Assembly (NCBI RefSeq): GCF_019969725.1
Contig: NZ_JAHXYW010000012.1
Coordinates: forward strand, 124,001 to 188,000
Direction of reading: 5' to 3'
DNA from: Neobacillus bataviensis
GTDB lineage: Bacteria; Bacillota; Bacilli; Bacillales_B; DSM-18226
Length of the DNA stretch: 64,000 nt
How positions within the stretch are numbered: position 1 is the first letter of the stretch; every line of letters begins with the position of its first letter. Position numbers and translations under genes: made by a program. The notes under the pieces were generated by a model, which saw only the letters and a list, made by a program, of their open reading frames with translations, made no database searches and was not told where the DNA came from. Below are positions 8,666 through 59,597 of this stretch, one piece after another.

Positions 8666-8815
8666 TACGTGACCGGTTTATCTTCTCAAGCCCTTTTTCG
8701 GACACATAGACCTTTTCTACGTGACCATTTCCTCTGCTCCAGACCTTTTTCGGGCACGTAGAGCCTTTCTACGTGACCATTTCCTCTGCTCCAGACCTTT
8801 CCCAGGCACGTAGGA
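8666..8815. repeat. 52-bp tandem array, three copies (CACGTAG family)
   Basis: Three units start with TACGTGACC at 8666, 8718 and 8770, exactly 52 bp apart. Units 2 and 3 are nearly identical; unit 1 is diverged. Each unit ends in CGGGCACGTAGAGCC or a variant, so ACGTAG and CTACGT flank a short spacer as an inverted repeat at each junction. The same core and same period recur in the array at 34299-34720. It fills the gap between the convergent deglycase and kinase genes. Confidence 0.9.
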
Positions 8816-8827
8816 ACGCAACGGAGC

Positions 8828-8856
8828 AAAAAAAGACCAGCCCCATAGGACCGGCC
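8828..8856 (-). terminator. Terminator of the frl-like transport/catabolic operon
   Basis: A nine-pair stem with some G-U pairs (8835-8856) is followed on the minus strand by seven T residues, 18 bp past the kinase stop. Confidence 0.72.
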
Positions 8857-8873
8857 ACCATCAAATACATAGA

Positions 8874-9710
8874 TTACCCAATGACAATCCTTTTCTCCCG
8901 CTTCTTGCCATGGCCAAATGCGCCAAAGCGTCCGCACGTTTCAGCCGCAGCCGCAGCACCCCTTTGCATCGCAGCCTTTGCATCACCATGCTGGACGTAC
9001 TCCTTTAAGAACACAGCCACAAACGTATCGCCTGCTCCTAATGTATCAACGACATCGGCATCGGCAATTCCATGTTCATAAACCTGACGGGAATCCGAAA
9101 ATACCGATCCCTCTGAACCTCTGGTTACGATCACATTTGGTGTTCCTGCTGCATGAACTTTCGCGATCAGCGCTTCACACTCTTGCTTCGTTAAATCGCC
9201 TCCAGAGAAGATTGCAAATTTGACATGGGGACAAACCAGCTCCAAATACTCATCATCGTACCTTGTTGAAAAATCAAAGGAAATATCGATGTATGTTTTC
9301 AATAAAGGCAGTTCCTTTTCGATATAGCTATATACACTTGTGTGCAGCAATGAGAAAGTATTAATAAACTCCAATTCCGCTTCTGCAAAATTCAGTTTTA
9401 CAAGCTTTTGAACCCCGCCCTTATTCGAGCCTACAAACTTCCGATCTCCTTGCTCGTCTAAAGTGACAACAGCCTCACCCGATGGTCCAAACACTTTACG
9501 AACCTGGGAAACATCGATATTTTCCTGCTTTAACGAACTGACGATATGATCGCCCTCTTCATCATTCCCGACAATTCCAATATAGGAAACGAACTCGGCG
9601 CCATATCGTTTCCAAAATACCGCTACATTGACGGCATTTCCGCCCGGGAACATCTCCCCGCGGTCTTCATAGTAATCTACTACGTTATCCCCAACAGCAA
9701 TTAACTTCAT
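8874..9710 (-). CDS. frlD: PfkB-family kinase, probable fructosamine 6-kinase (FrlD)
   Basis: 278 residues from the ATG at 9710, which has GGGAGG 8 bp upstream; 21 further in-frame residues upstream have no ribosome site. Ribokinase fold with the N-terminal sugar motif PGGNAVNVAVFWKRYG and the C-terminal anion-hole/catalytic motif DTLGAGDTF, whose last Asp is the base. In frl pathways FrlD phosphorylates the fructosyl amine at C6 before deglycation, and this gene sits last in the operon behind a deglycase and an ABC importer. The substrate is inferred from that context. Confidence 0.87.
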   Translation of the reverse strand: MKLIAVGDNVVDYYEDRGEMFPGGNAVNVAVFWKRYGAEFVSYIGIVGNDEEGDHIVSSLKQENIDVSQVRKVFGPSGEAVVTLDEQGDRKFVGSNKGGVQKLVKLNFAEAELEFINTFSLLHTSVYSYIEKELPLLKTYIDISFDFSTRYDDEYLELVCPHVKFAIFSGGDLTKQECEALIAKVHAAGTPNVIVTRGSEGSVFSDSRQVYEHGIADADVVDTLGAGDTFVAVFLKEYVQHGDAKAAMQRGAAAAAETCGRFGAFGHGKKREKRIVIG

Positions 9711-9779
9711 AATTGAATCCTCCCATTCGTTGAATAGCAGAAAGATACAACGAAACATTGTATCTTCCCGCAAATTATT

Positions 9780-10793
9780 TTAATAAGTTACCGTACGATA
9801 ATATCTTCTAATTTCTAACGAGTGATTACGTTTATCTTCTAAATGGACGCTGAGTCTTTGAAGCTGAGTAGATGTAACGATTGGTGACAAATATTTTCTA
9901 AACTCTTCGCTGATCCCTTCTAACTCGTAATCCTTCGTATCAAGGATTGTTACTTTCTTCGTATACTTTTCTGAAAAGCGCTCCACACGTTCCATCAGCG
10001 GGCGCGTTTCATCTTCACCCGTTAGGAGAATCATGCTTGTGTTTTCATCGACTAACTCCAATGTGCCATGGAAGAATTCTGCTGCGTGAATCGATTTTGT
10101 TTTGATCCACTGCATTTCCTCCAACACACACATCGCATAGGAGTAAGCGCGTCCCCAAGTTGACCCGGAACCCACCACCATATGATAAGGCTCATCTTTA
10201 TAGGCAACCGCAAATGCTTCTGCCCTAGCTTCGAACTGTTCTTTTACTTCGATTAATTTTTCAGGAAGTACCTCTAATTGGGCTGCAAATGCCTCATAGT
10301 TAGGGAAATCGCCATTTTTATTCATTAGTTTAAAAATCAACAAATAGAGCACTAACTGATTGGAATCGCTGGCAAAATCATTTTCTGCAAAATTCACAAG
10401 AGGAAAATCAACTGTATCAGCAAGCGGCTTATTGTATTCGCCTGTCAAGCCAATCGTTGTCGCTCCCCTTTCTTTACAGTATTTTGCTGCAGCGACCGTC
10501 TCTTCTGTCGTTCCAGATAGTGACGAAAGAATCACAAGTGAATCTGAAGTAAACTGTTTATGATTTTGCAGCACAAATTCCGCTGCAATTTCCGCATAGG
10601 CAGGAATCGTTGATGTCGAGTTGATCATATATTCAAACGGATAAAAAGTGGCTACCGCCCCGCCTGATCCAATTAAGAAAATATTTTTAAATCCTTTTTC
10701 ATAAACCTGGTCAGCAACCTTCTCAATTTCCTCTCTAAGGCCCACAGCGCCGCCAGTTACTGTAAGATATTTTTCCCTGTTAAAATTCAACAT
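9780..10793 (-). CDS. Second SIS-domain deglycase (FrlB paralogue)
   Basis: 337 residues from the ATG at 10793; AGGGAG lies 8 bp upstream, while a GTG three codons earlier is too close to it. Two SIS domains with LIGSGGAVATFYP, LSSLSGTTEETV and a HAAEFFHGTLELV segment. The organisation is the same as the deglycase at 7608 but the sequence is clearly diverged, so this is an old paralogue or a separate acquisition rather than a recent duplication. Two different deglycases in one locus suggest two substrate classes, as with the paired GfrE/GfrF enzymes of Salmonella; this is inference. Confidence 0.85.
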   Translation of the reverse strand: MLNFNREKYLTVTGGAVGLREEIEKVADQVYEKGFKNIFLIGSGGAVATFYPFEYMINSTSTIPAYAEIAAEFVLQNHKQFTSDSLVILSSLSGTTEETVAAAKYCKERGATTIGLTGEYNKPLADTVDFPLVNFAENDFASDSNQLVLYLLIFKLMNKNGDFPNYEAFAAQLEVLPEKLIEVKEQFEARAEAFAVAYKDEPYHMVVGSGSTWGRAYSYAMCVLEEMQWIKTKSIHAAEFFHGTLELVDENTSMILLTGEDETRPLMERVERFSEKYTKKVTILDTKDYELEGISEEFRKYLSPIVTSTQLQRLSVHLEDKRNHSLEIRRYYRTVTY

Positions 10794-10820
10794 TACTTTC
10801 ACTCCCTTTGATTTATATGT

Positions 10821-10840
10821 AATACATTATAATACGTTAT
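10821..10840. promoter_or_regulatory. Operator C inside the frl-like operon
   Basis: AATACAT-N6-ACGTTAT, matching sites A, B and D in half-sites and 6 bp spacing. It lies in the 84 bp gap between the permease gene and the second deglycase. A minus-strand TATAAT (10827-10832) with a weak -35 suggests a possible internal promoter, so the last two genes may be separately controlled. Confidence 0.55.
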
Positions 10841-10876
10841 ACATTTATTCGAGAAGCAGGGGGAGGATTCCCCCTT

Positions 10877-11797
10877 TTATCCCTTGACGCTTCCTTCAGC
10901 CAAACCGCGGACAAAGTATTTCTGCATGAAAATAAAAATCACAATAAGCGGCAGTGCTGAAATCACTAGTCCTGCCATTAATACTCCCCAGTTAGTATTA
11001 AGCGCATCTTTAAAGACTAATAGACCAGAAGTTATCGGCTTTAATTCCTCTGTTTGTATGAAGATGATAGAAAATAAGAACTCGTTCCACGCATAATAAG
11101 CGGTTAAAATGATACCCGTGAACATAATCGGTTTGCTCATTGGCATGTAGATTCTTGCGAATACATCCAAGCTTGTCGCCCCATCCAGAAACGCGGATTC
11201 TTCCAGCTCTTTCGGAATCGACAAGAAGAAGGACCGGATTAAGAGAACCGTTAATGGAATCCGATAAGCCGTAAAGGTTAATATCAGAGCCCAATGTGTA
11301 TCAAAAATCCCCATTTTTTGAACTAATTCATAAAGAGGGATTAAACTGCTCTGTGGTGAAAACATCAGGCCGGCTGAAACGAAAAGCAGAAGGAACTTGC
11401 CGCCTTTAAGTTGATAGCGAGTCAAACCAAAGGCACAGGCTGCACTGATTAAAACCGTCAGAATACACGTGCCTCCCGTGATAATCAAGCTATTAACGAA
11501 GTAACTTGAAACCCCTTGTTCCCAGGCGGTCGTATAGTTTGAAAAGAGCCATTCTTTCGGAAGTCCCCAGCTGTCGTTAAAAATCTCAGCCGTGTTTTTA
11601 AAAGAATTGACAATCATCCAAAATAAAGGATAGGCAATGGCAATAAAGTACAGAGTAAGGAAAAGAAAGATTAGTCCGACTGTTATTGATAAGCCTGGCT
11701 TTCTTTTGGAAGCCTTAAAGTTTTTATTCGGAAACTTTAAGATCTTTCCGCCGGGACTAACCATTTGTGAATCTTCATGTGCTTCCATCGGCTTCAT
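10877..11797 (-). CDS. ABC sugar-amine transporter permease (MalG type, FrlM-like)
   Basis: 306 residues, six predicted membrane segments after a cytoplasmic N-terminus of about 35 residues. The EAA loop with the ESAFLDGATSLDVFARIYMP motif contacts the ATPase. It belongs to the CUT1 family of carbohydrate importers. GGGGAGGAG precedes the ATG and overlaps the stop of the upstream permease gene (2 bp gap), so the two permeases are coupled. No ATPase gene is present in the locus; a shared MsmX-type ATPase encoded elsewhere probably energises it, as known for several Bacillus CUT1 importers. Confidence 0.88.
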   Translation of the reverse strand: MKPMEAHEDSQMVSPGGKILKFPNKNFKASKRKPGLSITVGLIFLFLTLYFIAIAYPLFWMIVNSFKNTAEIFNDSWGLPKEWLFSNYTTAWEQGVSSYFVNSLIITGGTCILTVLISAACAFGLTRYQLKGGKFLLLFVSAGLMFSPQSSLIPLYELVQKMGIFDTHWALILTFTAYRIPLTVLLIRSFFLSIPKELEESAFLDGATSLDVFARIYMPMSKPIMFTGIILTAYYAWNEFLFSIIFIQTEELKPITSGLLVFKDALNTNWGVLMAGLVISALPLIVIFIFMQKYFVRGLAEGSVKG

Positions 11798-11799
11798 CT

Positions 11800-12675
11800 T
11801 TACTCCTCCCCTGTTTTTAAGAACTTATTTTGGATAAAGTAGAAAATGAGTGTGATACCCAAAATCACGTTGGCAATCGCTGAAGCAAACCCAGGTTCAT
11901 TGTCGATAAAGGCCTTCTGGTATAGATATGTACTAAATACTTGTGACGAGTTACTAGGACCACCAGCTGTTAATACATATACTTCACTGAACACCAAGAA
12001 GGAGCCTGTCACTGTATAGATTAATAGAACAAACGTCATTTCTTTTACCTGTGGAACCGTAATGCTAAAGAATGTCCGGATTTTACCCGCTCCATCGATC
12101 GTCGCTGCTTCGTATAATTCCCCAGGGACTTTTTGAACCGCCAGCACATACAACATAACGGTATAACCGATACTTTGCCATTGGGAAACAGCAATGACAG
12201 CAAAAATAGATGTTTTTGGATTTCCTAGCCAGCCTTCCGTCCATTCACCCAAACCTACCAATCTTAGAAAGCTATTTAGCAAGCCGACATCTGGATTATA
12301 GATAAAGCTAAAGAGGATCCCAATAACCGTCATTGAAATGAGAACCGGGATAAAAAAGGTTGTCCGGAAGAAGGTGGAAAATCTCCTGAAAATCTTATCT
12401 TCTAATATCGCTGCAATCACTAATCCAAGCCCAACCTGGAGGATAACGGAGATAATGGCGTATAGGAGATTGTTCTTCAGTACCGTGAAGAAGACGGGAT
12501 CTTTAAACAAGCGTGTATAGTTATCTAGTGAAACAAAGCTTCTATCTAATGTGAATGGGTTCCATTCATAAAAGCCATTAATGATATTTCGAACCAAAGG
12601 ATAGTATACAAATAGGGCCAGCATCAATAAGGCGGGTGCCATATAAATAAGCGGGACTATTCTCGTTCTACGCAT
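11800..12675 (-). CDS. ABC sugar-amine transporter permease (MalF type, FrlN-like)
   Basis: 291 residues with six membrane segments and the EAA loop ELYEAATIDGAGKIRTFFSI. It pairs with the downstream permease and the lipoprotein encoded upstream to make a CUT1 importer. GGGAGGGG precedes the ATG. The assignment to fructosamine uptake comes from the adjoining kinase and deglycase genes. Confidence 0.88.
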   Translation of the reverse strand: MRRTRIVPLIYMAPALLMLALFVYYPLVRNIINGFYEWNPFTLDRSFVSLDNYTRLFKDPVFFTVLKNNLLYAIISVILQVGLGLVIAAILEDKIFRRFSTFFRTTFFIPVLISMTVIGILFSFIYNPDVGLLNSFLRLVGLGEWTEGWLGNPKTSIFAVIAVSQWQSIGYTVMLYVLAVQKVPGELYEAATIDGAGKIRTFFSITVPQVKEMTFVLLIYTVTGSFLVFSEVYVLTAGGPSNSSQVFSTYLYQKAFIDNEPGFASAIANVILGITLIFYFIQNKFLKTGEE

Positions 12676-12768
12676 CTATACCCCTCCCATCAACATCTAT
12701 GAAAATGTCGGTTTAATAGGAAGCTAGTTTCCTATTAACCGACACCTTCTAGAATTCATTATTCTTTA

Positions 12769-14046
12769 TTACTTTACTTGCTTCGCTGCATCCTGGACGG
12801 CCTTCATGATTTGTTCAGGCTTCATCGTGCCGCCAATCATAGCTTGAACGCCATCTCCATAAGGCTTGAAAATTCGAGTATCTAATGCGCTGTCTGTCCA
12901 GATCAGCATGTTTGGCTGTTCTTTAATCATATCCATCGCTTTTACATCAGCTTCCGTTGCGGTATTGGCATTAACCGCTCCTTCAACTGTACTTGGCATA
13001 CCGGTATCCTTAGCTAATTTCTCCCCGTTTGCCTTAGAAGTTAAGAATTTTAAGAACTCGACTGCTTCTTTAGGGTGTTGGGATTTGCTGTGAACCATAA
13101 ATCCTTCTGGAGCCCCTATTAAGCCTCCCTGGTCTCCTTTAGCACCATCGATGGTCGGTACTTTAAAGGAATCCCACTTAAACGCAGCGTTTTTCATATA
13201 CGTAATTTCCTGTGTTTCTAGGAACATGATCGCGGCTTTTCCGCCAAGGAATAAGTTTCTTGCTTCATCATGTGCAGTCGCATTTGGATTTTCATTAAAG
13301 AATGGACGTAATTCATCGAGCTTCTTTAATGCCTCAACATAACTAGGATCCGTGAACTCTGCTCCCTTAAAGCTTAAATCTTTTGCTAACACATCCTGTG
13401 GTACAATTCTTTGATTCAATGCTGTTACATAGTGAGCAGCTGCCCATGGTGATTTATTTCCTAAGATGATTGGAGTTTGTCCGCTCTTTTTAATGGTTTT
13501 AAGTACAGTGATAAACTCATCCCATGTAGTTGGTGCTTTCAAACCTAATTTATCAAATAGATCTTTGTTGTAGAAGAATAGTTTACTGTCGGTAAATAGT
13601 GGAACACCATAGGTTTTATCATCCTTTTGGAAGAATTTCACCTGTGATGCGATTAAATTGTCTGACCAGGCTTTGTCATCTTGGTAGTATTTTGTAAGGT
13701 CTAAAGCTACACCATCACGAATAAACTTTTGACCATATTCACCAGCCCAAGTAAAGAAAACATCCGGTGGATTCTTGCTTCCAAGAAGTACGTTTGCCTT
13801 TTGTTTGTAATCATCGTTTAACGCTGTTACCTGTTCAACATGAACGTCTGGATGCTGTTTTTCAAACTCTTTAATCACACTATTAAAATATGTTTTGTAC
13901 GGCTCATTTGGCCATCGGTAGAAAAATGTGATCGTTTTCTTTCCATTTTCCGATTTGGATGAGGTAGAGCTGCTTGACGAACATCCTGCTAGTATTAATG
14001 ACATTACCATGAAAATACCAACTGCTAGAGTAAACCAACGTTTCAC
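12769..14046 (-). CDS. ABC transporter substrate-binding lipoprotein (FrlO-like)
   Basis: About 425 residues. Lipoprotein signal peptide with lipobox LILAGC, then a Ser-rich linker and a family 1 extracellular solute-binding fold (YRWPNEPYKTYFNSVIKEFE onward). It should capture the glycated amino acid outside the membrane. The start is probably the GTG at 14046, which has GGGGG 7 bp upstream; the in-frame ATG at 14052 is only one base from it. It is the first gene of the transporter-deglycase-kinase operon, under promoter/operator D. Confidence 0.88.
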   Translation of the reverse strand: MKRWFTLAVGIFMVMSLILAGCSSSSSTSSKSENGKKTITFFYRWPNEPYKTYFNSVIKEFEKQHPDVHVEQVTALNDDYKQKANVLLGSKNPPDVFFTWAGEYGQKFIRDGVALDLTKYYQDDKAWSDNLIASQVKFFQKDDKTYGVPLFTDSKLFFYNKDLFDKLGLKAPTTWDEFITVLKTIKKSGQTPIILGNKSPWAAAHYVTALNQRIVPQDVLAKDLSFKGAEFTDPSYVEALKKLDELRPFFNENPNATAHDEARNLFLGGKAAIMFLETQEITYMKNAAFKWDSFKVPTIDGAKGDQGGLIGAPEGFMVHSKSQHPKEAVEFLKFLTSKANGEKLAKDTGMPSTVEGAVNANTATEADVKAMDMIKEQPNMLIWTDSALDTRIFKPYGDGVQAMIGGTMKPEQIMKAVQDAAKQVK

Positions 14047-14084
14047 ATACATACCCCCAATTATTTATTCCTTATACAACTCAT

Positions 14085-14098
14085 CTAAAACGCTTTCA
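14085..14098. promoter_or_regulatory. Possible cre (CcpA) site in the frlO leader
   Basis: CTAAAACGCTTTCA, 12 of 14 against the cre consensus TGNAANCGNWNNCA, with both mismatches at one end. It lies between the operon promoter and the start codon, a position suited to roadblock-type carbon repression of a catabolic operon. Confidence 0.4.
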
Positions 14099-14184
14099 TC
14101 TTTGAATAAGTTCAGTATTGCAGCTCTTTAGCCTCCCTCTCTATGGAACACGTTATATCTCATGTCCAATTGTATTATAAGATT

Positions 14185-14213
14185 ATATTACATACTATAA
14201 CGTTTGAAGTCAA
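14185..14213 (-). promoter_or_regulatory. Promoter of the frl-like operon with overlapping operator D
   Basis: On the minus strand TTGACT, 17 bp, TAATAT. Operator D (14187-14206), ATTACAT-N6-ACGTTTG on the plus strand, covers the -10 and spacer and aligns with sites A-C. The leader to the start codon is about 140 bases and includes a possible cre. Confidence 0.7.
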
Positions 14214-14404
14214 TATCGAAATAAGGGGAATTTTCAAATTATTTTTTATACAACTTCCTTTCTATGGATAAAACTACATAGGTATACTACGATAGTTTAT
14301 TTATAAGATAAAATACCACAAAATCAATAATTATAATAGTTAAAATATTATTACGATTACAGTTCTTTATTTCCATTTTCACAAAACTGCTATAGAATAA
14401 GAAA
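14214..14404. other. AT-rich intergenic stretch
   Basis: Between the frl-like operon promoter and the SDR terminator. I see no ORF with a ribosome site, no repeat array and no clear structure. Confidence 0.4.
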
Positions 14405-14426
14405 AAGCCAGTCAAATGACTGGCTT
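14398..14426 (-). terminator. Terminator of the lic-like operon
   Basis: The stem AAGCCAGTCA/TGACTGGCTT (14405-14426) is followed on the minus strand by TTTCTTATTC, 15 bp after the SDR stop. Confidence 0.85.
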
Positions 14427-14440
14427 CATTAGGAATACTA

Positions 14441-15217: not shown

Positions 15218-15256
15218 TATGTATCCCCTCTCTTCATCAGCCAAAAAGGCAGCAAA

Positions 15257-19979: not shown

Positions 19980-20117
19980 CTATATGACTTCGATTACTGT
20001 CCAGCTACAGCGCCTAGGGGCTCGGGGTCATAAGCCAATCCGTCGAGAATGTTAAAAAGCAACCTTCACGCCGGCTCGTCTTATGCCTGTCGCCCCTGTT
20101 CAAGGCGCTTCCGCATT
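19980..20117 (-). repeat. Dispersed palindromic repeat, copy 1, within the atp operon
   Basis: An element of about 120 bp containing GCGCCTAGGGGCTCGGGGTC, a central small inverted repeat and an end reading AAGGCGCTTCCGC. The outer parts are complementary (GCGCC..AGGGGC with GCCCCT..GGCGC; CATAAG with CTTATG), so it folds into a long hairpin. Near-identical copies lie at 44113-44249 and, inverted, at 50635-50756, and a short form at 55850-55922. It sits between atpG and atpD and must be co-transcribed. No ORF. The strand given is that of transcription. Confidence 0.85.
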
Positions 20118-20118
20118 T

Positions 20119-20982
<864 letters not shown>

Positions 20983-27978: not shown

Positions 27979-28109
27979 GTGTAAATTTCCCCTTTTTCAT
28001 ATCGTTTTCATTGAGCGGGGAAAGTATGCAGCTAGCTTTAATAATTAACTAGTATGCAAAAGTTTTGTTCATTGCCCAAAAAGGAAGGAAGTAAGCTTCC
28101 ACGGGCATT

Positions 28110-28142
28110 GAAAATAAAAAAGCCGAGCATTTCTACTCGACG
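28110..28142 (-). terminator. Terminator of upp
   Basis: The stem GTCGAG/CTCGGC (one G-U pair) around an 8-base loop is followed on the minus strand by TTTTTTATTTTC, 13 bp after the upp stop. Confidence 0.75.
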
Positions 28143-34170: not shown

Positions 34171-34298
34171 TCTGTCTTCGCCCCCTTGGACTAACTATTT
34201 CAGCATATGCACGTCCTATATGATTTAGAAGTAGAGCGGGGAAATGGCTGGGGCGTTTACTTCTATTTTAGCGCTTCTGGAAATTGGGAAGGGATGGG

Positions 34299-34720
34299 GC
34301 TACGTGACCGAATTAGTTCTGGAATCGAGGTTACGGGCACGTAAACGGGGGCTATGTTACCCAAATTGCTTCTGTACCAAGTTTTCCGGCACGTAGGCGG
34401 GTTCTACGTTACCCAAATTGCTCCTATACCAAGTTTTCGAGCACGTAGGCGGGTTCTACGTTACCCAAATTGCTCCTATACCAAGTTTTCCGGCACGTAG
34501 GCGGGTTCTACGTTAACCAAATTGCTTCTGTACCAAGTTTTCCGGCACGTAGGCGGGTTCTACGTTAACCAAATTGCTCCTATACCAAGTTTTCCGGCAC
34601 GTAGGCGGGTTCTACGTTAACCAAATTGCTCCTATACCAAGTTTTCCGGCACGTAGGCGGGTTCTACGTTACCCAAATCGCTCTTGTACTGAGTTTTCCG
34701 GCACGTAGACTGGGGCTCCT
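34299..34720. repeat. 52-bp tandem array, eight copies (CACGTAG family)
   Basis: GGCACGTA (or AGCACGTA) recurs at 34336, 34388, 34440, 34492, 34544, 34596, 34648 and 34700, always 52 bp apart. The unit is GGCACGTAGGCGGGTTCTAC then GTTAACC/GTTACCC, AAATTGCTCC/TCTG, TATACCAAG and TTTTCC. ACGTAG and CTACGT form a small hairpin or dyad in each unit. The outermost copies are most diverged, and the left end (CTACGTGACC at 34299) resembles the array at 8666. It fills most of the 615 bp gap between sua5 and mntP. No ORF. Confidence 0.95.
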
Positions 34721-37456: not shown

Positions 37457-37576
37457 TCTCAGCACCGTCCCTTCGATATCCTCATTGTGGACAGAAACCA
37501 AGAATCTTAAACTAGTAAATTTTAATATTTTTACCCGAACATTTCATATTACTCCGCACTAATCAACCGCTACCGC

Positions 37577-37760
37577 CTTTATTTCAGCCCAGCGGGCTTT
37601 ATGAACCTTTCTTATCGACCGTTGCACCCTTTTTTCCAGGCTCACGGGCATTATGAACCTCTCTTATCGACCGTCAAGACTCTTTTTCCAAGCTCGCGGG
37701 CTTTATGAACCTCTCTTATCGACTGCCAAGACTCATTTTCTAAACTCACGGGCATTATGA
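37577..37760. repeat. 52-bp tandem array, four copies (GGGCTTTATGAACC family)
   Basis: CGGGCTTTATGAACC or CGGGCATTATGAACC recurs with its GGG at 37594, 37646, 37698 and 37750, again exactly 52 bp apart. The conserved second part is TCTTATCGACCG, and the unit contains CTTTTTCCAAGCTC before the next CGGG. The core differs from the CACGTAG arrays, but the period and the TTTTTCC-GGC layout match. It fills the spoIIR-prmC spacer (37457-37790). Confidence 0.92.
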
Positions 37761-37772
37761 AACCCACACAAT

Positions 37773-39786: not shown

Positions 39787-39820
39787 ACAAAAAAACATGC
39801 CCTGGTAAACAGAGCATGTT
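39787..39820 (-). terminator. Terminator of the YhcN/YlaJ-type lipoprotein gene
   Basis: AACATGC/GCATGTT with inner CTG/CAG pairing (39794-39820), followed on the minus strand by TTTTTTTG. It overlaps the stop codon. Confidence 0.82.
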
Positions 39821-41356: not shown

Positions 41357-41452
41357 TCTTTTCATCTCCTTCCGCCCTGAATCTTTCGAAACAGAGTTAT
41401 ATAAATGCCTGTCTTAAAAACAAGCATGAAATACTAAAAACACACTGCACCC

Positions 41453-44088: not shown

Positions 44089-44112
44089 GAATTCCATCCC
44101 CCGTTTTCATTT

Positions 44113-44249
44113 ATATAACTTCGATTAATGTCTAGCTGCAGCGCCTAGGGGCTCGAGGTCATAAGCCAATCCGTCGAGAAGGTTAAAAAACAACCTTCCC
44201 GCCGGCACGTCTTATGCTTGTCACCCCTGGGCAAGGCGCTTCCGCTTTT
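44113..44249 (-). repeat. Dispersed palindromic repeat, copy 2, between murAB and glpX
   Basis: Near-identical to the element at 19980-20117, including the outer flank TATATAACTTCGATTA and the central AAGGTT/AACCTT mini-hairpin. Like copy 1 it starts at the 3' edge of an upstream gene (murAB stop at 44250) and would lie in the mRNA. Confidence 0.88.
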
Positions 44250-45539
44250 CTATGTGTTTTTCAACTGCTCGACTTCTTCGTTCGTTAAAGCTTCACGCCA
44301 AACCGTCGCACCGAGGCCATTTAATTTTTCAACCAGATTGCTATAGCCACGATCGATGTGTTCAAGGCCAGTTACTTCGGTAATCCCTTCTGCCATGAGG
44401 CCGGCGATAAAGAGAGCCGCTCCGGCACGAAGATCGCTCGCCTTCACTTTTGCCCCTTGAAGCTGGATAGGACCATTTATGATTGCCGAACGGCCTTCCA
44501 CTTTAATATTGGCGTTCATTCTTCTAAGTTCATCGATATGTTTAAAGCGGGCACCATAAATCGTATCGGTGACGACGCTTGAACCGGTCGCTTTTGTTAA
44601 AAGAGTTGTAAATGGCTGCTGCAGGTCGGTTGGAAAGCCAGGATAAACAAGCGTTTTGATATCAACAGCCTTCAATTTCGCCGCTCCGCCGTCGACAAAC
44701 ACCTGGTCGTCGCCTGATTCAATGTAGACGCCCATTTCACGCAGCTTGGCAATTAATGATTCCAAATGCTGCGGGATGACATTGTCGATGAGGACTCCTT
44801 CCCCAACGGCGGCTCCCAAAATCATATAGGTTCCTGCTTCAATCCGGTCAGGAATAATCGTATGACGGCAGCCGTGCAGCGTATCGACGCCATCAATCCG
44901 GATCACATCCGTTCCGGCCCCTTTAATCTTCGCGCCCATGTTCGTTAAAAGTGTAGCGACATCAATAATTTCTGGCTCTTTCGCCGCATTTTCAATGATT
45001 GTCCGTCCTTTTGCCCGAACGGCAGCAAGCATGATATTGATGGTCGCACCCACACTGACGACATCGAGATAAATCCGTGCGCCGCGAAGCTCGTCCGCAC
45101 GCAAATAAATCGCCCCTTGTTCGTTGGTGATTTGCGCGCCAAGTGCCTCGAAGCCTTTAATATGCTGATCAATCGGTCTTGGCCCCAAATGGCAGCCTCC
45201 TGGTAAACCAATGACAGCTTTTTTAAAGCGGCCGAGCATTGCTCCCATTAGATAATAGGACGCACGCAGTTTTTTTACTTTTCCGTTTGGCAGCGGCATA
45301 GAAATCATCGTCGATGGGTCAACCGTCATTTCATCGTTCGTTATTTCAACTTTGCCGCCGATTTCTTCGAGCAAATCCTTTAAGATTTCCACGTCCGAAA
45401 TCTCCGGCAGTCCTTCAATTGTCACTGGTGATTCTGCTAAAATGGTGGCAGGAATTAAGGCAACGGCACTATTTTTGGCTCCGCTGATGCGAACCGTTCC
45501 CTTCAGCGGATATCCGCCTGCAATTTTAAGTTTTTCCAT
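44250..45539 (-). CDS. murAB: UDP-N-acetylglucosamine 1-carboxyvinyltransferase (second MurA)
   Basis: 429 residues, equal to B. subtilis MurAB/MurZ. First committed step of peptidoglycan synthesis. Catalytic-loop Cys in [15 protein letters not shown] (about residue 117), substrate Lys22/Asn23 in [12 protein letters not shown]. The ATG at 45539 has AAGGGAG upstream; 27 in-frame codons above lack a site. Context (fba, tal, glpX) identifies the MurAB paralogue. A Cys at the loop predicts fosfomycin reactivity. Confidence 0.94.
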
Positions 45540-48727: not shown

Positions 48728-48757
48728 AAACGGCCTTGATTGGGGCCGTTTTTTGTT
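48728..48757 (+). terminator. Terminator of ywjG
   Basis: AAACGGCC/GGCCGTTT around an 8-base loop followed by TTTG, immediately after the stop codon and directly before the 21-bp array. Confidence 0.85.
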
Positions 48758-48872
48758 TTGTCTATTTTTGGGGCGGTTTTGTCTATTTTTTGAGTGGGTT
48801 TGTCTATTTTTAGGGCAGGTTTGTCTATTTTTTTCGGTCGTTTGTCTATTTTTTCGCAGGGTTTGTCTAAAT
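48757..48872. repeat. 21-bp tandem array, six copies (TTTGTCTATTTTT family)
   Basis: GTCTAT (last copy GTCTAA) recurs at 48760, 48781, 48802, 48823, 48844 and 48865, exactly 21 bp apart. The core TTTGTCTATTTTT is constant, while the remaining 8 bp change between copies (GGGGCGGT, TGAGTGGG, AGGGCAGG and others) and stay mostly G-rich. Located between the convergent ywjG and pyrG terminators. The same core and period recur at 59525-59597. Confidence 0.93.
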
Positions 48873-48883
48873 ATACATTTATT

Positions 48884-48920
48884 CCCAAAAACAAGACCAG
48901 TCCCCCAAAGGAAACTGGTC
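48884..48920 (-). terminator. Terminator of pyrG
   Basis: GACCAGT/ACTGGTC arms (48895-48920) are followed on the minus strand by TTGTTTTTGG, just after the pyrG stop. Confidence 0.8.
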
Positions 48921-51481: not shown

Positions 51482-51619
51482 TATTGGCACTTCCTTTCTC
51501 TATTTAACACTCTAAAAAGAGTGATAAGGGCATTTCTCCCAGTTTGCATATTCTTCATTATAAACAAATTCTTACCGTTTATGCTAGTTCTAGCTGACCA
51601 ATCCCTTGATTTTTTCCTG

Positions 51620-51781
51620 CTAGTCGTCCTTTTTGTTGAATTTTTTTAATTCTTTAATCGAAATAACGAGAAAGAAGATCGATAAAAGCAGGAATGAGAC
51701 GGCACCTAACTGGCGCTCATACAGATAATATAACGGCCAGGCAAAAATGATTAAAATAATGATCATCGTACGTAGCTTCAT
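51620..51781 (-). CDS. Small membrane protein of 53 residues
   Basis: A short ORF starting MKLRTMIIILIIFAWPLYYL and ending LKKFNKKDD, with AGGTG 8 bp before the ATG. Two hydrophobic helices (about 5-20 and 28-42) are separated by YERQLGA, with positively charged ends. I do not recognise a family. The ribosome site, codon pattern and clean stop support a real gene. It lies between icmF and rpoE and would be transcribed from the icmF side or its own promoter. Confidence 0.72.
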   Translation of the reverse strand: MKLRTMIIILIIFAWPLYYLYERQLGAVSFLLLSIFFLVISIKELKKFNKKDD

Positions 51782-51860
51782 ATCTTCACACCTGCCATGA
51801 TCCTCGAAGTTTGTTCACTAGTTTGATTATATAAGATAATTCTTTTTTGTAAAACAACGG

Positions 51861-51901
51861 TGTCAGGCACCATGTGAAAATTTCACATGGTGCCTGACAC
51901 T
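51861..51901. repeat. Perfect 20-bp inverted repeat with one-base centre
   Basis: GTGTCAGGCACCATGTGAAA, one A, then its exact complement. It lies 10 bp after the icmF stop. The core GTGTCAGGCACC is a repeat I know to be scattered through Bacillaceae genomes. Without a long T tail it is a doubtful terminator but a very stable RNA end. Confidence 0.88.
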
Positions 51902-51910
51902 CAACATTCC

Positions 51911-54900
51911 TTACATATTTCTTCGGTACTGCCCGCCGACTTCGTAAAGGGCGCGGGTAATTTGGCCGAGACTTGCTACTTTGACGGTTTCCATCAGTTC
52001 GGCAAAAATGTTGCCATTATTGACGGCTGCTTCCTTAAGGCGTTTTAGCGCCGCCGCTGCTTCGGCTTTGTGGCTTTCCTGAAACGTGCGTAAATTATGA
52101 ATCTGCAGCTCTTTTTCCTCGGTTGTAGCACGGGCCAATTCCATATTGTTAACGTCTTCCTCGGACGGAGGATTCGGATTCAAATACGTATTGACGCCAA
52201 TAATTGGCAGTTCACCGGTATGCTTTTTCATTTCATAATACATCGATTCATCTTGAATCTTGCCTCGCTGGTACTGGGTTTCCATCGAACCAAGCACACC
52301 GCCGCGGTCATTCAAACGTTCAAATTCTTGTAAAACCGCTTCTTCGACAAGTTCCGTAAGCTCTTCCACAATGAACGCACCCTGAAGCGGATTTTCATTT
52401 TTCGTTAAGCCGTGCTCGTTTGTGATGATCATTTGAATCGCCATCGCCCGTCTTACTGATTCCTCAGTTGGCGTTGTAATCGCCTCATCATAAGCATTGG
52501 TATGAAGGGAATTACAGTTATCATGTAAGGCCATTAATGCCTGCAATGTAGTCCGGATATCATTAAAATCGATTTCCTGAGCATGCAGTGAGCGGCCGGA
52601 TGTCTGAACATGGTACTTCAGCTTTTGGCTCCGTTCGTTTGCACCATACTTATCGCGCATCACCGTTGCCCAAATGCGGCGGGCCACACGGCCGATAACG
52701 GTATATTCCGGATCTAAGCCGTTACTGAAAAAGAATGATAAGTTCGGCGCAAAGTCATCAATCTTCATGCCGCGGCTTAAATAGTACTCGACATAAGTAA
52801 AGCCGTTTGACAGCGTGAACGCCAATTGTGAAATCGGATTTGCTCCCGCTTCAGCAATGTGATAGCCGGAAATGGAAACGGAATAGTAGTTGCGTACCTG
52901 ATGGTCAATGAAATATTGCTGGATATCTCCCATCATTCTTAGGGCAAACTCTGTTGAAAAAATACAAGTGTTCTGGCCTTGGTCTTCTTTTAAAATGTCG
53001 GCCTGCACCGTACCGCGGACAGTCCGCAATGTATAGGCACGGACTTCGGCGAATTCTTCCACCGTCAGCACGCGTCCTAACTCCGCTTCTTTCCGCTTCA
53101 CCTGCTGATCAATTGCTGTATTCATGAACATCGCTAAAATGATCGGCGCTGGTCCATTGATCGTCATTGAAACCGAAGTCGATGGGTGGCAAAGATCAAA
53201 GCCGTCATATAGCTTTTTCATGTCGTCCAACGTACAAACACTGACGCCGCTTTCCCCGACTTTCCCGTATATATCAGGACGGTAGTCTGGGTCTTCTCCA
53301 TACAAAGTAACTGAATCAAATGCCGTACTTAAACGTTTCGCATCGTCGTCCTTCGATAAATAGTGGAAACGGCGGTTCGTTCTTTCCGGTGTACCTTCGC
53401 CGGCAAACTGGCGTTTCGGATCTTCCCCTTCACGCTTGAATGGGAAAACACCTGCTGTATATGGGAATGAACCCGGTACGTTTTCCTGATAGACCCAGCG
53501 GAGAATCTCGCCGTAATCCTTGAATTTTGGCAGCGCCACTTTTGGAATATCAAGCCCTGATAAGCTCTTTGTTTTTAAAATTGTAATAATCTCTTTATCA
53601 CGGATTCTGGTGACAAATTTATCACCGGAATATGCTTTCTTCGTATCTTCCCAGCTGTCTAAGATTTTCTTCGATTCCGGGGTTAATTTCGCTTCTGTTT
53701 CCGCTTTAACGGCTTCGAGTGCCGCAATTACGCCGGGCTCTTGGACCGCTTCAATCGCACCCTCAAGCTGGAATAATTTCCGGGCAATATTGGCCTGCTC
53801 TTCGGCCTTCTTATGATAGCCGCGCACTGTTTCCGAGATTTCACGTAAATAGTAGCGGCGGTCCGTTGGAATAATCACGTTTTGCTTTTCCACAACGGCA
53901 TTTTTATTAAAGGAAGTTACCCACTCAGTGTCCATTTTTTCGTTAATTTTTTCAATTAACGCAGCAAACAAAGCGTTTGTGCCATGGTCATTGAACTGGC
54001 TGGCAATTGTTCCGTATACCGGCATTTCAGACGGGTCTTTTTCAAACAGCATATGGCTGCGCTGGTATTGCTTTTGCACTTGGCGCTTCGCGTCCTCTGA
54101 ACCCTTGCGCTCGAATTTATTGATGACGATCAGGTCGGCAAAGTCGATCATATCGATTTTTTCAAGCTGAGACGGTGCCCCGAATTCTGAAGTCATGACA
54201 TATAAAGATACATCACAGATTTCAGTAATTTCGGCATCTCCCTGTCCGATCCCGCTTGTTTCCACGATGACAAGGTCAAAGCCCGCTGCCTTTGTCACGG
54301 CAACAGCATCTTTAATCGCCAGTGACAGCTCGTTTTTCGAATGTCTTGTCGCAAGGCTGCGCATATATACATTTGGTGAAAAAATCGCATTCATACGGAT
54401 ACGGTCGCCAAGAAGGGCTCCGCCTGTTTTTTGCTTTGTCGGGTCAACCGAAAGGATCGCGACTTTTTTATCAGGCAGCTCGTTGATAAAACGGCGGATC
54501 AATTCATCGGTTAACGAACTTTTTCCAGCACCGCCCGTTCCAGTAATCCCAACTACCGGAATTCCCTTCTCAAGCGACTTCACCTGCTCGAGCACTTCTT
54601 CAGCTGTTGCCGCTGCTTCGTTCCGTTTATCAACATGAAGCTCTGCCATTGTTATCAGCTTAGCAATAGCGTTAACATCCCCCGAAGGGAGTTTTTCGAT
54701 TTGCTCACTGATATCGTCTGTGACAGTTGAAAAATCACACTCCTCAATCATCCGGTCAATCATGCCCTGAAGGCCAAGTTTGCGGCCGTCTTCAGGTGAG
54801 AAAATCCAGGCAATTCCGTACTCATGAAGCTCATTTATTTCCCGAGGGATAATCACGCCGCCCCCGCCGCCGTAAATCCGGATATGCGGTGCGCCTTTTT

Positions 54901-55165
54901 CTTTTAATAAGTCATACATGTATTTAAAATATTCGACATGTCCGCCTTGATAGGATGAAATCGCGATTCCTTGGGCGTCCTCTTGAATCGCAGCGTTCAC
55001 GACCTCCTCAACGGAGCGGTTATGACCAAGGTGGATGACCTCGGCCCCGCTTGACTGAAGGATTCGACGCATAATATTAATAGAAGCATCGTGGCCGTCA
55101 AACAGACTGGACGCTGTGACAAAACGGATATGATGCTTCGGCTGGTATTTACTCGTTGTTTTCAC
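51911..55165 (-). CDS. icmF: Fused isobutyryl-CoA mutase (IcmF)
   Basis: 1084 residues in the IcmF order: B12-binding domain (about 10-145, DGHDASIN with the cobalt-ligating His), a MeaI-type GTPase chaperone (about 200-420, P-loop GTGGAGKSS 209-217, NKFER), and the acyl-CoA mutase TIM barrel (about 560-1084). It interconverts isobutyryl-CoA and butyryl-CoA, and members may act on pivalyl- or isovaleryl-CoA. The start is a GTG with GGGGG upstream. Last gene of the acyl-CoA operon, 25 bp after fadR. Confidence 0.95.
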
Positions 55166-55190
55166 GCTTAGGTTCCCCCTTTTTTTAAAA

Positions 55191-55832
55191 TTAGCCCTTT
55201 TTTTGCGGCTGAAATTGGCGTAATCCTGACAGTAATTGCTCGGTTTGCAGCTCGATGTATTCGTCTAATGTAAATAATTTTCGTAATGCCCAGCGGCGGA
55301 AGCCCCACATTTGTCCTTGGACAAAAATATTATGGGCAATGATTTTGACCTGCTGTTCAGTTAACTCAAGCTCCCCGTTCTCAATACAGCGGGAAAGCAA
55401 GTTTTCAAACATGGCCACCATGGCTTCTTCTTTTTTCAACACATATGGAAGGGCGTCTTTTGACAGCGATTTGACTTCCTGATACATGACCAGCACTTCG
55501 GACTGCATTTCGTCCATTACATGGAAAAAGTTCGCGATACCGAGCTTTAAGCTCTCCAATGTCCCTTTTTTGACAGACAAGTCCTGCTCGAGGCGCTCGC
55601 TGACATGGTCATAGATGCTGTCGCAGACGAGATAAAGCACATCTTCCTTTGTGCGGATGTATTCATAAAGCGTCCCAATGCTAAAGCCGGCCGCTTTGGC
55701 AATTTCCCTTGTCGTCGTCCGGTGAAACCCCTTTTGTTTAAAAAGTGCTACGGCCCCTTTGATCATTTGGTCACGCCTCTTTTGAACGAGGCGCTCATCC
55801 TTGACCGAGGCCTGAACTTCCCGCTTTTTCAT
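55191..55832 (-). CDS. fadR: TetR-family regulator, probable FadR
   Basis: 213 residues. N-terminal TetR helix-turn-helix (about 20-65, [18 protein letters not shown]) and a helical acyl-CoA-binding type C-terminal domain. It lies inside an acyl-CoA degradation operon, and FadR-type boxes precede both fadF and the thiolase gene, so control of beta-oxidation with release by long-chain acyl-CoA is likely. AAGGTAGG precedes the ATG. Confidence 0.85.
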
Positions 55833-55849
55833 CGCTTTTATCCTACCTT

Positions 55850-55922
55850 TGTCTAGCTCCAGCGCCTAGGGGCTCGGGGTCTTATGCCCGTCGCCCCTGG
55901 TCAAAGCGCTTCCGCTTTTTCT
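55850..55922 (-). repeat. Dispersed palindromic repeat, short form lacking the middle
   Basis: Begins TCTAGCTCCAGCGCCTAGGG like copies 1-2 but jumps from GGGGTC straight to CTTATGCCCGTCGCCCCTGG, missing about 45 bp that include the central mini-hairpin. The outer stem is kept. Located between acdA and fadR in the same transcript. Confidence 0.85.
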
Positions 55923-55924
55923 TT

Positions 55925-57064
55925 TTACTTCGTAATCATTCTAGAAATAACGAGGCGCTGGATTTCCTGAGTGCCTTCGTAGATTTGCGTAATTTTTGCA
56001 TCGCGCATAAATCTCTCAACTGGATAATCCTTTGTATAACCGTAGCCGCCAAATACTTGGACTGCTTCTGTCGTTACCTTCATCGCTGTATCGCCGGCAA
56101 GAAGCTTCGACATTGCGGACTCTTTTCCGTACGGAAGTCCGTTAGACTCAAGCCATGCTGCTTGATAGGTTAATAGTCTTGAAGCTTCGATGCCTGTTGC
56201 CATATCAGCAAGCTTGAAGCTGATTCCTTGGTTGGCCGCGATTGGCTTGCCGAATTGGTGGCGTTCTTTGGCATAGTCGACAGCAGCGTCTAGAGCACCT
56301 TGGGCGATTCCCACTGCTTGCGCCGCGATGCCGTTACGTCCGCCATCAAGCGTCATCATCGCAATTTTGAAGCCTTCGCCCTCTTCGCCAAGACGGTTGG
56401 CAACTGGAACACGGCAATCTTCAAAAATAATTTCCGTTGTCGGTGATGAACGAATGCCTAGTTTCTTTTCCTTTTTCCCTACTGAGAAACCTGGGAAATC
56501 TTTTTCCACGATAAATGCAGTTGTGCCTTTTTGTCTGCTGGATGGATCGGTTAAAGCAAAAACAACATAGATGTCGGCGATGCCGCCGTTAGTGATAAAA
56601 ATTTTGGAGCCGTTTAGGACGTAATGGTCGCCTTCAAGACGTGCTGTCGTTCTCATGCCGCCTGCATCGGAACCGCTGCCTGGCTCTGTTAAGCCGTAAG
56701 CACCGATCTTGCTTCCTTCTGCCATTGGGCGCAGATAGGTTTGCTTTTGTTCTTCGTTGCCGAATTTGTAAATCGGCCAGCCTGCAAGTGAAGTGTGAGC
56801 AGAAAGAGTTACGCCAATTGAGGCATCAACACGGGAAAGTTCTTCTACTGCGATGCAGTATGCTAAGTAATCGCTGCCGATTCCGCCGTACTCTTCCGGC
56901 CACGGAATGCCTGTTAAGCCAAGATCTGCCATTTTGTCAAAAATCTCACGATCAAAGCGTTCGTCCTCATCACGTTCTGCAGCGGTTGGCGCCACCTCGT
57001 TGCGCGCGAAATCACGAACCATTTTACGAATCATTTCATGTTCTTCGGATAGTTTGAAGTTCAT
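55925..57064 (-). CDS. acdA: Acyl-CoA dehydrogenase
   Basis: 379 residues, FAD-dependent first step of beta-oxidation. [18 protein letters not shown] (FAD/substrate), [14 protein letters not shown], the C-terminal [22 protein letters not shown], and [13 protein letters not shown] with the catalytic Glu. AAAGGAGG precedes the ATG. Close relative of the next gene upstream (57346-58476); electrons should go to ETF and then FadF. Confidence 0.95.
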
Positions 57065-57087
57065 TTTTGGAATCCTCCTTTAAACTT

Positions 57088-57318
57088 TCTACAAATTTTA
57101 GTGGGTATTCTACAAAAATCAGTTTGGAATCTACAATTTTTGGTGTGCTTTCTACAAAATTCAGGTTGATATCTACAATTTTGAGACCACATTCTACATT
57201 CCGAAAAACTTACTACCTATTTTTCGGAACTTACGACATATTTTCAGCTGCTTACTACGTCTTTTTTGGTACTTACGACATATTTTCAGCTACTTTCTAC
57301 TTCTTTTCAGAACTTATC
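57088..57318. repeat. 21-bp tandem array, about eleven copies (TTCTACAATTTT family)
   Basis: CTACA recurs at 57089, 57110, 57131, 57152, 57173 and 57194, exactly 21 bp apart. After that the core drifts to CTTACTAC/CTTACGAC, with CTT at 57209, 57230, 57251, 57272 and 57293, again 21 bp apart. Later units end in TATTTTTCGGAA or TATTTTCAGCTG. Two sub-blocks with different cores share one period. It fills the acdA-acyl-CoA dehydrogenase spacer within one operon. Confidence 0.93.
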
Positions 57319-57345
57319 AACATTTACTGGATACTTTTGTAAAAC

Positions 57346-58476
57346 CTATAGATTCTTACTTATCACAATCCGCTGGATCTCACTCGTACCCTCATAAATC
57401 TCCGTAATTTTCGCATCGCGGAAATACCGTTCAACCGGGTAATCCTCTGTGTAACCGTAGCCGCCGAAAACTTGGATGGCTTCTGTCGCAACCTCTACCG
57501 CCGTCTTCGATGCATAAAGCTTCGCCATCGAAGCTTCCAAACCGCACTTCACACCTCGTGCGCGCAAATCGGCTGCACGATAGACTAATAGTTTTGCAGC
57601 TTCCACACTAGTTGCCATATCAGCTAGCTTAAAACCAATCCCCTGCTGGGCGGCAATCGGTTTGCCGAACTGCTGGCGGTCCTTTGCATAGGCAGTTGCG
57701 GCTGACAGTGCGGCCTCAGCGATTCCCAGCGCCTGGGCGGCAATTCCGATACGGCCGACATCGAGGTTGGCCATCGCAATTTTAAAACCGTCGCCTTCTG
57801 CACCAAGAAGGTTCTCAGCCGGCACCCTCATGTCCTCGAACGTCAGCTGGACCGTTCTGGAGCCGTGCAAGCCCATTTTCTTTTCATCCTTGCCAATAAC
57901 GAGGCCAGGCGTCCCCTTTTCCACAATAAACGCCGACATTCCTCTGCTGCCTAACTCCGAATTTGTTTTCGCAAACACAATATAGACATCAGCTTCACCG
58001 CCATTTGTGATAAACACCTTCGAGCCGTTAATCACATAATGATCGCCGCTTCGAACTGCCCGAGATTTCAAGCTGGCTGCATCCGATCCAGAGCTCGGTT
58101 CCGTTAAGCAAAATGCTCCAAGATACTCACCGGATGCCATCTTTGGCAAATATTTTTGTTTCTGTTCCTCGGTTCCGAAGTAAAGAATCGGGTTGGTACC
58201 GACGGAGGTATGAACAGACAGGATGACGCCGATGGTGGCGCTTACTTTGGAAAGCTCATTAATGGCGATGATATAGGAAGTGAAATCCATCTCAGCGCCG
58301 CCGTATTTTTCTGGAACCGGAATTCCCATCAGGCCCAGTTCCCCCATTTTGCGAAGAACTTCGCGCGGAAACTCACCCTTTTCCATTTTTTCAATAAATG
58401 GAGCAATTTCGTTTTCGGCAAAATCGCGGACCATTTTTCGCATCATTTCTTGCTCTTCTGTGAATGTTAGATTCAT
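57346..58476 (-). CDS. Acyl-CoA dehydrogenase (second)
   Basis: 376 residues from the ATG at 58476 ([16 protein letters not shown]), with AAAGGAG upstream; 16 further codons in frame are not needed. Same motifs as acd[44 protein letters not shown] and [13 protein letters not shown] with the catalytic Glu. Probably short- or branched-chain specific (MmgC/BCAD-like). Similarity to acdA indicates an old tandem duplication. Confidence 0.94.
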
Positions 58477-58620
58477 GATGATTTCTCCTTTTGGAGAATC
58501 TAAAGTGGCAGTATTCATCCTCAAGCATCCCCTTTTTTGAAAAATAGAATGGAACTGGGCTTAAATTATTTTTTCCTATGTTATTCGTACATGTAAAAAC
58601 TGCGGCACGATTCTCTTACT

Positions 58621-59472
58621 CTATTCGTATGTGTAAAACCCTCGGCCGGTTTTCTTGCCGAGCCAGCCTGCTTTTACATATTTGCGAAGAAGCGGACATG
58701 GACGGTACTTGTCGTCGCCGAACCCTTCATGAAGTGTTTCCATAATGTAAAGACATGTATCCAAGCCGATAAAATCAGCTAACGTCAGCGGCCCCATCGG
58801 GTGATTCATGCCGAGCTTCATTACTTCGTCGATAGCTTCTTTTGTAGCAACACCTTCGTATAACGCATAAATCGCTTCATTGATCATTGGCATGAGGATG
58901 CGGTTGGAGATAAAACCTGGGAAGTCATTCACTTCCACCGGCACCTTACCGAGTGTTTTCGTCATATCTTCTATCACTTGGTATACTTCATCTGCTGTCG
59001 CTAAGCCGCGAATTATTTCAACCAGCTTCATAACCGGCACGGGATTCATGAAGTGCATGCCGATAACCTTTTCCGGACGTTTTGTTGCCGCTGCAATTTC
59101 CGTAATCGGAAGCGATGATGTGTTGCTTGCTAAAATCGCATGTGCCGGAGCAATTTCATCCAGCTGCGCAAAAATTTTCGTCTTAATGTCCATGTTTTCA
59201 ACCGCTGCTTCGATGACCAAATCAACTTCGGCTGCATCATGAAGGTCAGTTGAGGCTGTGAGTCTTGCCAGCACTTCTTGCTTTTGCTCGTCTGTCATCC
59301 GTCCTTTGTCCACGTTGCGAGATAGATTTTTGTTGATGACTCCTAAGCCGCGTTCAACAAATTCAGATTTAAGATCATTTAATAAGACATTGTAGCCTGC
59401 CTGGGCGCATACTTGAGCGATCCCTGAGCCCATTTGTCCTGCTCCGATTACCATTACTTTAGAAACCTTCAT
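58621..59472 (-). CDS. hbd: 3-hydroxybutyryl-CoA dehydrogenase
   Basis: 283 residues. NAD-binding [12 protein letters not shown] at residues 9-20, [12 protein letters not shown], and the catalytic His in [16 protein letters not shown], with the C-terminal helical domain [19 protein letters not shown]. Oxidises 3-hydroxyacyl-CoA (MmgB-like). GGAGGGG precedes the ATG. Confidence 0.96.
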
Positions 59473-59524
59473 GTTTTCCCCTCCAAATGGGGGCCGCAGC
59501 CCCGTATTTTATATCCAAATATGG

Positions 59525-59597
59525 TTTTGTCTATTTTTTCAGGTGTTTTGTCTATTTTTTCAGGTGTTTTGTCTATTTATTAAGCCCCATTGTCTAT
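59525..59597. repeat. 21-bp tandem array, four copies (TTTGTCTATTTTT family)
   Basis: GTCTAT at 59529, 59550, 59571 and 59592, exactly 21 bp apart. The unit is TTTTGTCTATTTTTTCAGGTG, and the last copies are diverged in the filler. Same core as the array at 48757-48872. It lies in the spacer between the thiolase and hbd genes of one operon. Confidence 0.92.

Follow-up and report, generated by a model that had tools for sequence, protein, structure and literature searches.

Repeats of 20–21 and 52 nt are said to have been first reported in a 2020 J Bacteriol paper. A survey of 176 Bacillus genomes, with a search rule of at least four repeats, found that 66.2% of 4029 tandem repeats have units of 20–21 or 51–53 nt (Subirana & Messeguer 2021, PMC8161180). 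The accessible portion of that paper describes these repeats as constant in size, variable in sequence, non-coding and of unknown function, lists B. subtilis among the species poor in them, relates the 20–21-nt unit to two helix turns, proposes nucleoid proteins or small RNAs as roles, and poses as an open question why some bacteria have just two satellite sizes. Excerpts of two further papers hold an earlier survey (PMC6749651) and the transcription of 52-nt repeats in B. coagulans (PMC8625621). Here we describe intergenic arrays of the same two sizes in a 64,000-nt stretch of the Neobacillus bataviensis genome (contig NZ_JAHXYW010000012.1, positions 124,001–188,000; hereafter the window) and in other Neobacillus genomes. 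The original prediction, made from the window sequence, had held that no named element fits these arrays; since both sizes are in print for Bacillus, they are not without precedent.

The window arrays resemble the Bacillus repeats, as far as the accessible text of PMC8161180 describes them, in both unit sizes, constant length, variable sequence and non-coding location, and also in their partial conservation between strains and in the presence of short characteristic sequences together with their reverse in one repeat. The published unit lengths fit seven of seven intergenic rows in our lag scan, all outside open reading frames (ORFs). Constant size with variable sequence is seen in the different words at 48757 and 8666 and in many words across 22 genomes; the arrays at 8666 (2.8 copies), 37559 (3.9) and 59524 (3.6) fall under the four-copy minimum. 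Unlike the published words, which the same text calls species specific, one word here is shared by 26 of the 61 Neobacillus genomes. The two-size class is thus already known, and what our computations add to it is a dyad of fixed geometry, a shared word, an in-register change of word, a preferred placement relative to genes and terminators, and a constraint on the core (in one array). The 27-bp dyad frame, the cross-species word, the in-register change, the terminator placement and a shared end element are not described in the accessible portions of PMC8161180, PMC6749651 and PMC8625621. Literature searches yielded no additional paper, and priority is claimed only to that extent.

We tentatively read each array as a row of target sites for DNA-binding proteins with sequence specificity, serving as post-terminator insulators or nucleoid clamps, and assign this reading a probability of roughly 0.45. 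One or more such proteins would act at the level of DNA, and the spacing would be held constant because neighboring proteins need to make contact along one constant helix face.

Two periods in the window and across the genus

Arrays were located with Tandem Repeats Finder (TRF) and with a lag scan under an ORF mask (row threshold score 20). Both programs bore out the prediction that the intergenic arrays of the window have periods of 52 or 21 bp: of the seven intergenic lag-scan rows, three show a period of 52 and four a period of 21/42, and the remaining seven rows (periods 24, 147, 60, 120, 33, 30, and 51) lie inside ORFs. Shuffled controls (the window in blocks of three, 400 kb in blocks of two) returned 0 lag-scan rows. 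At a low threshold, TRF gives three more intergenic rows, all weak and with roughly two copies each, at periods of 15 (at 4214), 21 (35960), and 17 (42919). What had been taken for a single array of about 11 copies at 57088 does have a 21-bp period but consists of two abutting arrays with different cores (best lag of both 42, TRF also 21).

The survey set comprised the window and 100 fetched loci (L061–L160), together 2.03 Mb from 22 genomes of one genus. Its loci are mixed, some lying around known matches and others representing the spoIIR region in 20 congeners, blind sets (one of them blind except for contig C3, known beforehand to hold two arrays) or 20 evenly spaced stretches of genome G013. 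The set contains 128 intergenic rows, 58 in class 52, 54 in class 21, and 16 others, where the classes are our own (class 52 takes in 51, 53, 103, and 104; class 21 takes in 22, 41, 83, 123, 125, and 146). Class 52 includes at least one tRNA cluster, the row L128:951 with lag 103, and fragments of a single array may have been counted twice. The period is exactly 52 in 48 rows (51 and 53 add eight, 103 and 104 add two) and exactly 21 in 44 rows. The two periods thus dominate the genus, and no continuous range of periods was observed in these genome samples. Fifteen rows come from the set that was blind except for C3 and 27 from the G013 stretches, 15 of the latter being exactly 52. A period of 39 accounts for four rows, three from genome G007 and one from G006. 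Twenty stretches from other genera of the order gave 17 rows of mixed periods, eight of them at 20–22, 41–42, or 53.

Array density is very uneven, with only four rows in 400 kb (two blindly chosen stretches of 200 kb each from the nearest genome, G001). This would suit neutral satellites, the main rival to protein-binding rows, in which slippage or unequal recombination duplicates units in tolerant gaps, each array inherits its period, and recombination among strains disseminates the words. We consider such an origin unlikely, and the recurrence of two periods with different words over 22 genomes of the genus argues against it.

On the prmC side of spoIIR, an array is found within 1.3 kb in at least 11 of 80 named loci (one with an intervening ORF), several loci ending too near to show one. 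The period is 52 bp in five Neobacillus-type loci and 20–21 or 41 bp in the six others. G013 and G021 likewise hold 52-bp arrays in the prmC–spoIIR gap, and the words differ among the spoIIR-side arrays. Elsewhere, a 52-bp array of ∼14 copies in G001 (contig C21, 31202–31958) is spanned by a long spurious ORF, and ORF masks can therefore hide arrays.

Dyads, cores, and register of the repeat units

The 52-bp units contain a dyad of fixed geometry, in which 10-bp arms flank a 7-bp center to give a 27-bp footprint. At least 8 of 10 pairs match at this footprint in 30 of 46 merged arrays, compared with 0 of 46 at footprints 26 or 28 and with 9 of 920 shuffled units (footprints 25 and 29 have the same center as 27 and are hence non-independent). 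Before merging, the fit is found in 34/48 arrays at 27, in 1/48 at 26, and in 1/48 at 28. The second base of the half-site is G in all but two of the 34 listed arrays, the usual form being KG[TG][CA]N6. In the window, nine pairs match at 8666 and six each at 34296 and 37559, where the outer layout is still kept; the three arrays have GG-x-C...7 bp...xCC-type ends in common and are not the unrelated sequences for which they had been taken. Each 52-bp unit provides one dyad, and its pair of 10-bp half-sites, inverted and separated by 7 bp, would fit a homodimer.

The excess of these odd-centered dyads over shuffled units is not what neutral satellites would lead one to expect, and neither is the recurrence of one dyad word beside unrelated spacers. 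This word, GGNNACGTAGA-N5-TCTACGTNNCC, is present with at most one mismatch in the 26 of 61 genomes mentioned above (backward control, 1/61), and the 25-bp spacers of its arrays differ from array to array. Inside many single 52-bp arrays, on the other hand, the spacers are nearly identical copies, as recent duplication predicts. The minority-base rate is 0.061 in the arms, 0.134 in the centers, and 0.115 in the spacers, a contrast that is partly built in, as the arrays were picked for a good dyad.

Solitary, near-perfect copies of the ACGTAGA dyad occur outside arrays in G001 (L069:17505 and L181:9648). They adjoin LysR-like and phosphoesterase-like ORFs, the copy at L181:9648 lying between a LysR-like and a catalase-like ORF (names by eye), and gave no further lead.

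The original prediction had attributed the two unit lengths to helical phasing and conjectured a DNA-bending, nucleoid, or supercoiling role. Phasing alone does not account for the lengths: units span two or five turns, never three, four, or six, and within a 52-bp unit the half-sites are 17 bp apart, a non-integer number of helix turns.

Hairpin folding of the dyad is possible, and RNA-seq reads from 52-nt repeats are reported for B. coagulans in the excerpted text of PMC8625621. We considered an RNA function, in which the arrays would be transcribed to yield small RNAs with hairpins, to serve as sponges, or to form elements at mRNA 3′ ends; we regard it as improbable. When the pairs in individual units were counted on the gene-sense strand (26 arrays, 260 consensus pairs), 850 of 1050 were Watson-Crick, 39 G-T, 38 A-C, and 123 other, so that the mismatches contain no wobble excess over A-C and other mismatches are commoner. 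The 21-bp units have no internal dyad, and no window array reached the Rfam gathering score, the sole match in the window at gathering thresholds being an L31 leader outside the arrays.

In the 21-bp arrays of the window and G001, the spacing between copies of the words TTTGTCTATTTTT and TTTGGACATTTTT is 21 bp in 51 cases, 20 bp in three, and 42 bp in nine. Such an array could present half-sites that all face one way, one per two helix turns. Many arrays with a TTTG word finish, as judged by eye and with some misfitting ends, with TTTA-GACA or a near variant and then TGGAAAAA or ACCAAAAA, and would thus close with an inverted half-site. By eye, the same type of end element is also found in G005, G017, G018, G021, and G031 with other words; the CTACA and CTTACTAC arrays of the window are without it. 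Congeners also use other words; a relaxed three-unit pattern matched in 5 of 60 relatives, and cores of different sequence were seen. The T-rich strand is on the same side of the local GC skew in 19 of 21 arrays of the TTTGTCTATTTTT/TTTGGACATTTTT words; we accordingly dropped gene direction, as opposed to replication, as the determinant of array orientation, and strand composition bias may be the cause.

Iteron-type arrays at plasmid origins and partition sites also consist of direct repeats near 20–22 bp, with a conserved core, a variable spacer, and a single helix face. The 21-bp arrays are like them in these respects but differ in occupying tens of chromosomal loci behind terminators, with no replication or partition gene beside the inspected ones.

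G001 is collinear with the window and has 34% of sampled 31-mers in common with it, large blocks aligning mostly at 92–98% identity (the first 2.5 kb lower). The array at 48757 has an orthologue in G001 with the core TTTGGACATTTTT; all five aligned cores differ, one strain having GTCT where the other has GGAC, and flanks and register align despite a difference of one 21-bp unit. At 8666, likewise, the array arms of the window read CACGTAG and those of G001 CACTCTG. In the 57088 array, the one that can be aligned cleanly and on which this contrast rests, cores differ at 6/130 and spacers at 15/99 sites (p = 0.0097), in line with the predicted conservation of cores over filler; duplication alone would not yield 21-bp arrays that conserve cores and lose spacers. 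The claimed near-constancy of length finds support. Against G001, array positions show 163 substitutions and 11 indel events (three of exactly 21 bp) against 322 substitutions and 51 indels in other intergenic DNA, and thus fewer indels per substitution (Fisher p = 0.013; the array counts derive from BLAST alignments of repeats, in which slippage is possible), while copy number does change by whole units. Whole arrays come and go: at 39787 and 40361 the window has none, whereas G001 shows one of 52 bp and, as judged by eye, one of 21 bp. Variation in presence and copy number is a point for neutral satellites.

If the arrays are binding rows, the word that is read could switch across all units of an array. 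We raise, as a doubtful extension, a chromosome-wide satellite system in Neobacillus in which the frame, be it a 27-bp dyad repeated at 52 bp or a half-site recurring at 21 bp, would be inherited and the sequence would not, with fast-changing dimeric proteins reading interchangeable words and arrays bounding transcription units. All units of an array would then take on a new word jointly, in a manner resembling the satellites of eukaryotic centromeres, which change along with their proteins. If proteins do bind, the arrays would be a bacterial counterpart of satellite and binding-protein co-evolution and a new kind of chromosome boundary. The dyad frame, the word in 26 of 61 congeners, the in-register change, and the terminator side provide concrete baits and predictions.

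Placement relative to terminators and genes

Among arrays in codirectional gaps, a terminator-like site lies between the upstream gene and the array in 23/38 (class 52) and 19/30 (class 21), 42/68 in total. Such sites are found inside the array in 3/38 and 0/30 and beyond it in 5/38 and 1/30 (6/68), and none was found for 12/38 class-52 and 10/30 class-21 codirectional arrays. The latter cases leave room for an RNA function, against which the mostly preceding position of the detectable terminator speaks. A fixed link between arrays and the terminator T-run was dropped, as the distances are widely scattered (class 21, medians of 14 and 44 bp; class 52, medians of 43 and 55.5 bp). Divergent gaps hold 0/48 class-52 and 3/41 class-21 rows, compared with 18% of intergenic length (ORFs ≥80 aa). 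The most likely job of the arrays, if they are protein-binding rows, would be that of a protein patch behind terminators that blocks read-through or separates transcription and supercoiling domains.

The binding-row reading draws on the fixed dyad geometry, the less variable arms, the dyad word shared among differing spacers, and the lack of a wobble excess, together with the 21-bp spacing, the core-versus-spacer contrast, the in-register change of word, and the terminator side. Several observations weigh against it. Sixteen of 46 arrays miss the dyad cut, including two of the three in the window, and a word-based scan, using partly different loci from the ORF-based count, labels some arrays divergent (1/15, 2/6, and 1/13 for three words); both points lower our confidence. 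Terminators are also frequent in ordinary gaps, 57 of 126 having one in the first 150 nt (control gaps were codirectional, 200–700 bp long, and may in part hold arrays themselves), and their one-sidedness is therefore the stronger point. With several words per genome, either several proteins or a loose reader would be needed. Arrays are gained and lost between near strains, long stretches are nearly without them, and phasing leaves the use of only two and five turns unexplained. A neutral satellite confined to dead zones would moreover occupy the same places, with few arrays in divergent gaps and a position behind terminators.

Mobile elements and features of the window

Whole arrays present in one strain and missing at the same site in the other, as well as an end element that is common to TTTG-family arrays across words and species, might also reflect a mobile or copy-pasted element, for instance through a RAYT-like Y1 transposase that maintains palindromes or through recombination that relocates entire arrays. 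Y1_Tnp (PF01797) matches are present in 58 of the 61 genomes, and many of them fall within ORFs of ∼180–280 aa. We nevertheless regard this origin as very improbable. None of eight fetched Y1 neighborhoods, of many listed, has a 21- or 52-bp array within ∼3 kb, and on this ground a REP/RAYT origin was set aside. One of the eight adjoins a 39-bp array with GGGGGCCTGTCCCCC, and the Y1 proteins look tied to this other repeat. Two word patterns gave no match in viral contigs (exact matching only), and a phage origin was likewise rejected. Rut sites, Xer sites, Tn7 ends, and fork traps were considered on general grounds alone and not adopted.

REP palindromes bear a GTAG or CGTC tag, according to the excerpted text of PMC3733652. 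No such tag is found at the dyad feet, where 32 of the 34 listed arrays show KGKC or a similar sequence. The arrays are like REP/BIME palindromes with RAYT proteins in being intergenic, present in many copies, and often clustered, and unlike them in a period fixed at 52 or 21 and in that the RAYT-like genes here adjoin other repeats. With CRISPR arrays they share a palindromic part that alternates with a spacer at constant period; the near-copy spacers within an array, the many loci, and the size are different, a distinction also drawn in the accessible part of PMC8161180.

Arrays of 39 bp with GGGGGCCTGTCCCCC palindromes are located at 7608–7895, 13011–13208, and 14640–14736 of L084 (G007) and at L278:3410–3479. 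A Y1-transposase-like ORF of 180 aa adjoins one of them, and two Y1-like ORFs in G013 have the C-terminal sequence GDSPPV(L/P), which a GGGGGCCTGTCCCCC-type repeat could encode. The Y1-like ORFs and the 39-bp repeat are presumably a RAYT with its own repeat.

Table 1. Repeat arrays of the window, with the evidence for each
Feature	Position	Strand	Evidence
52-bp array, 2.8 copies, arms GGGCACGTAG / CTACGTGACC	8666..8813	+	TRF, lag scan; 9/10 arm pairs at footprint 27
52-bp array, 8.0 copies, arms CGGCACGTAG / CTACGTTAAC	34296..34713	+	TRF, lag scan; 6/10 arm pairs, cut 8
52-bp array, 3.9 copies, GGGCATTATG...CTTATCGACC	37559..37761	+	TRF, lag scan; 6/10 arm pairs, cut 8
21-bp array, core TTTGTCTATTTTT, 6 cores	48755..48885	+	TRF, lag scan (scan row 48755-48869, 5.5 copies)
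21-bp array, TCTACAA core, five to six units	57088..57198	+	TRF, lag scan (scan row 57088-57182, CTACA core)
21-bp array, CTTACTAC-type core, ~five units	57209..57316	+	TRF, lag scan (scan row 57209-57307)
21-bp array, core TTTGTCTATTTTT, 3.6 copies	59524..59598	+	TRF, lag scan
End element of the 59524 array, inverted half-unit (TTGTCTATTAAGACAA) then TTTTTGGAAAAATCC	59589..59626	+	By eye

Convergent gene pairs enclose the first 52-bp array of Table 1 and the first 21-bp array, one gene beside the latter being CTP synthase. The eight-copy array is flanked by a threonylcarbamoyladenylate synthase gene and an MntP-like gene, and the remaining 52-bp array by prmC and spoIIR. A ∼5.6-kb segment of G001 (C5:98756–104413), missing from the window at 28032–28116, carries a TTTGTCT 21-bp array at 99830. 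The Rfam match in the window is the L31-Firmicutes ribosomal protein leader (41366–41396, minus strand, 41.3 bits). Two window inserts of ∼140 bp, at 19981–20119 and 44108–44251, are absent from the same sites in G001; they look alike by eye and, on that inspection, appear to be MITE-like or another dispersed repeat.

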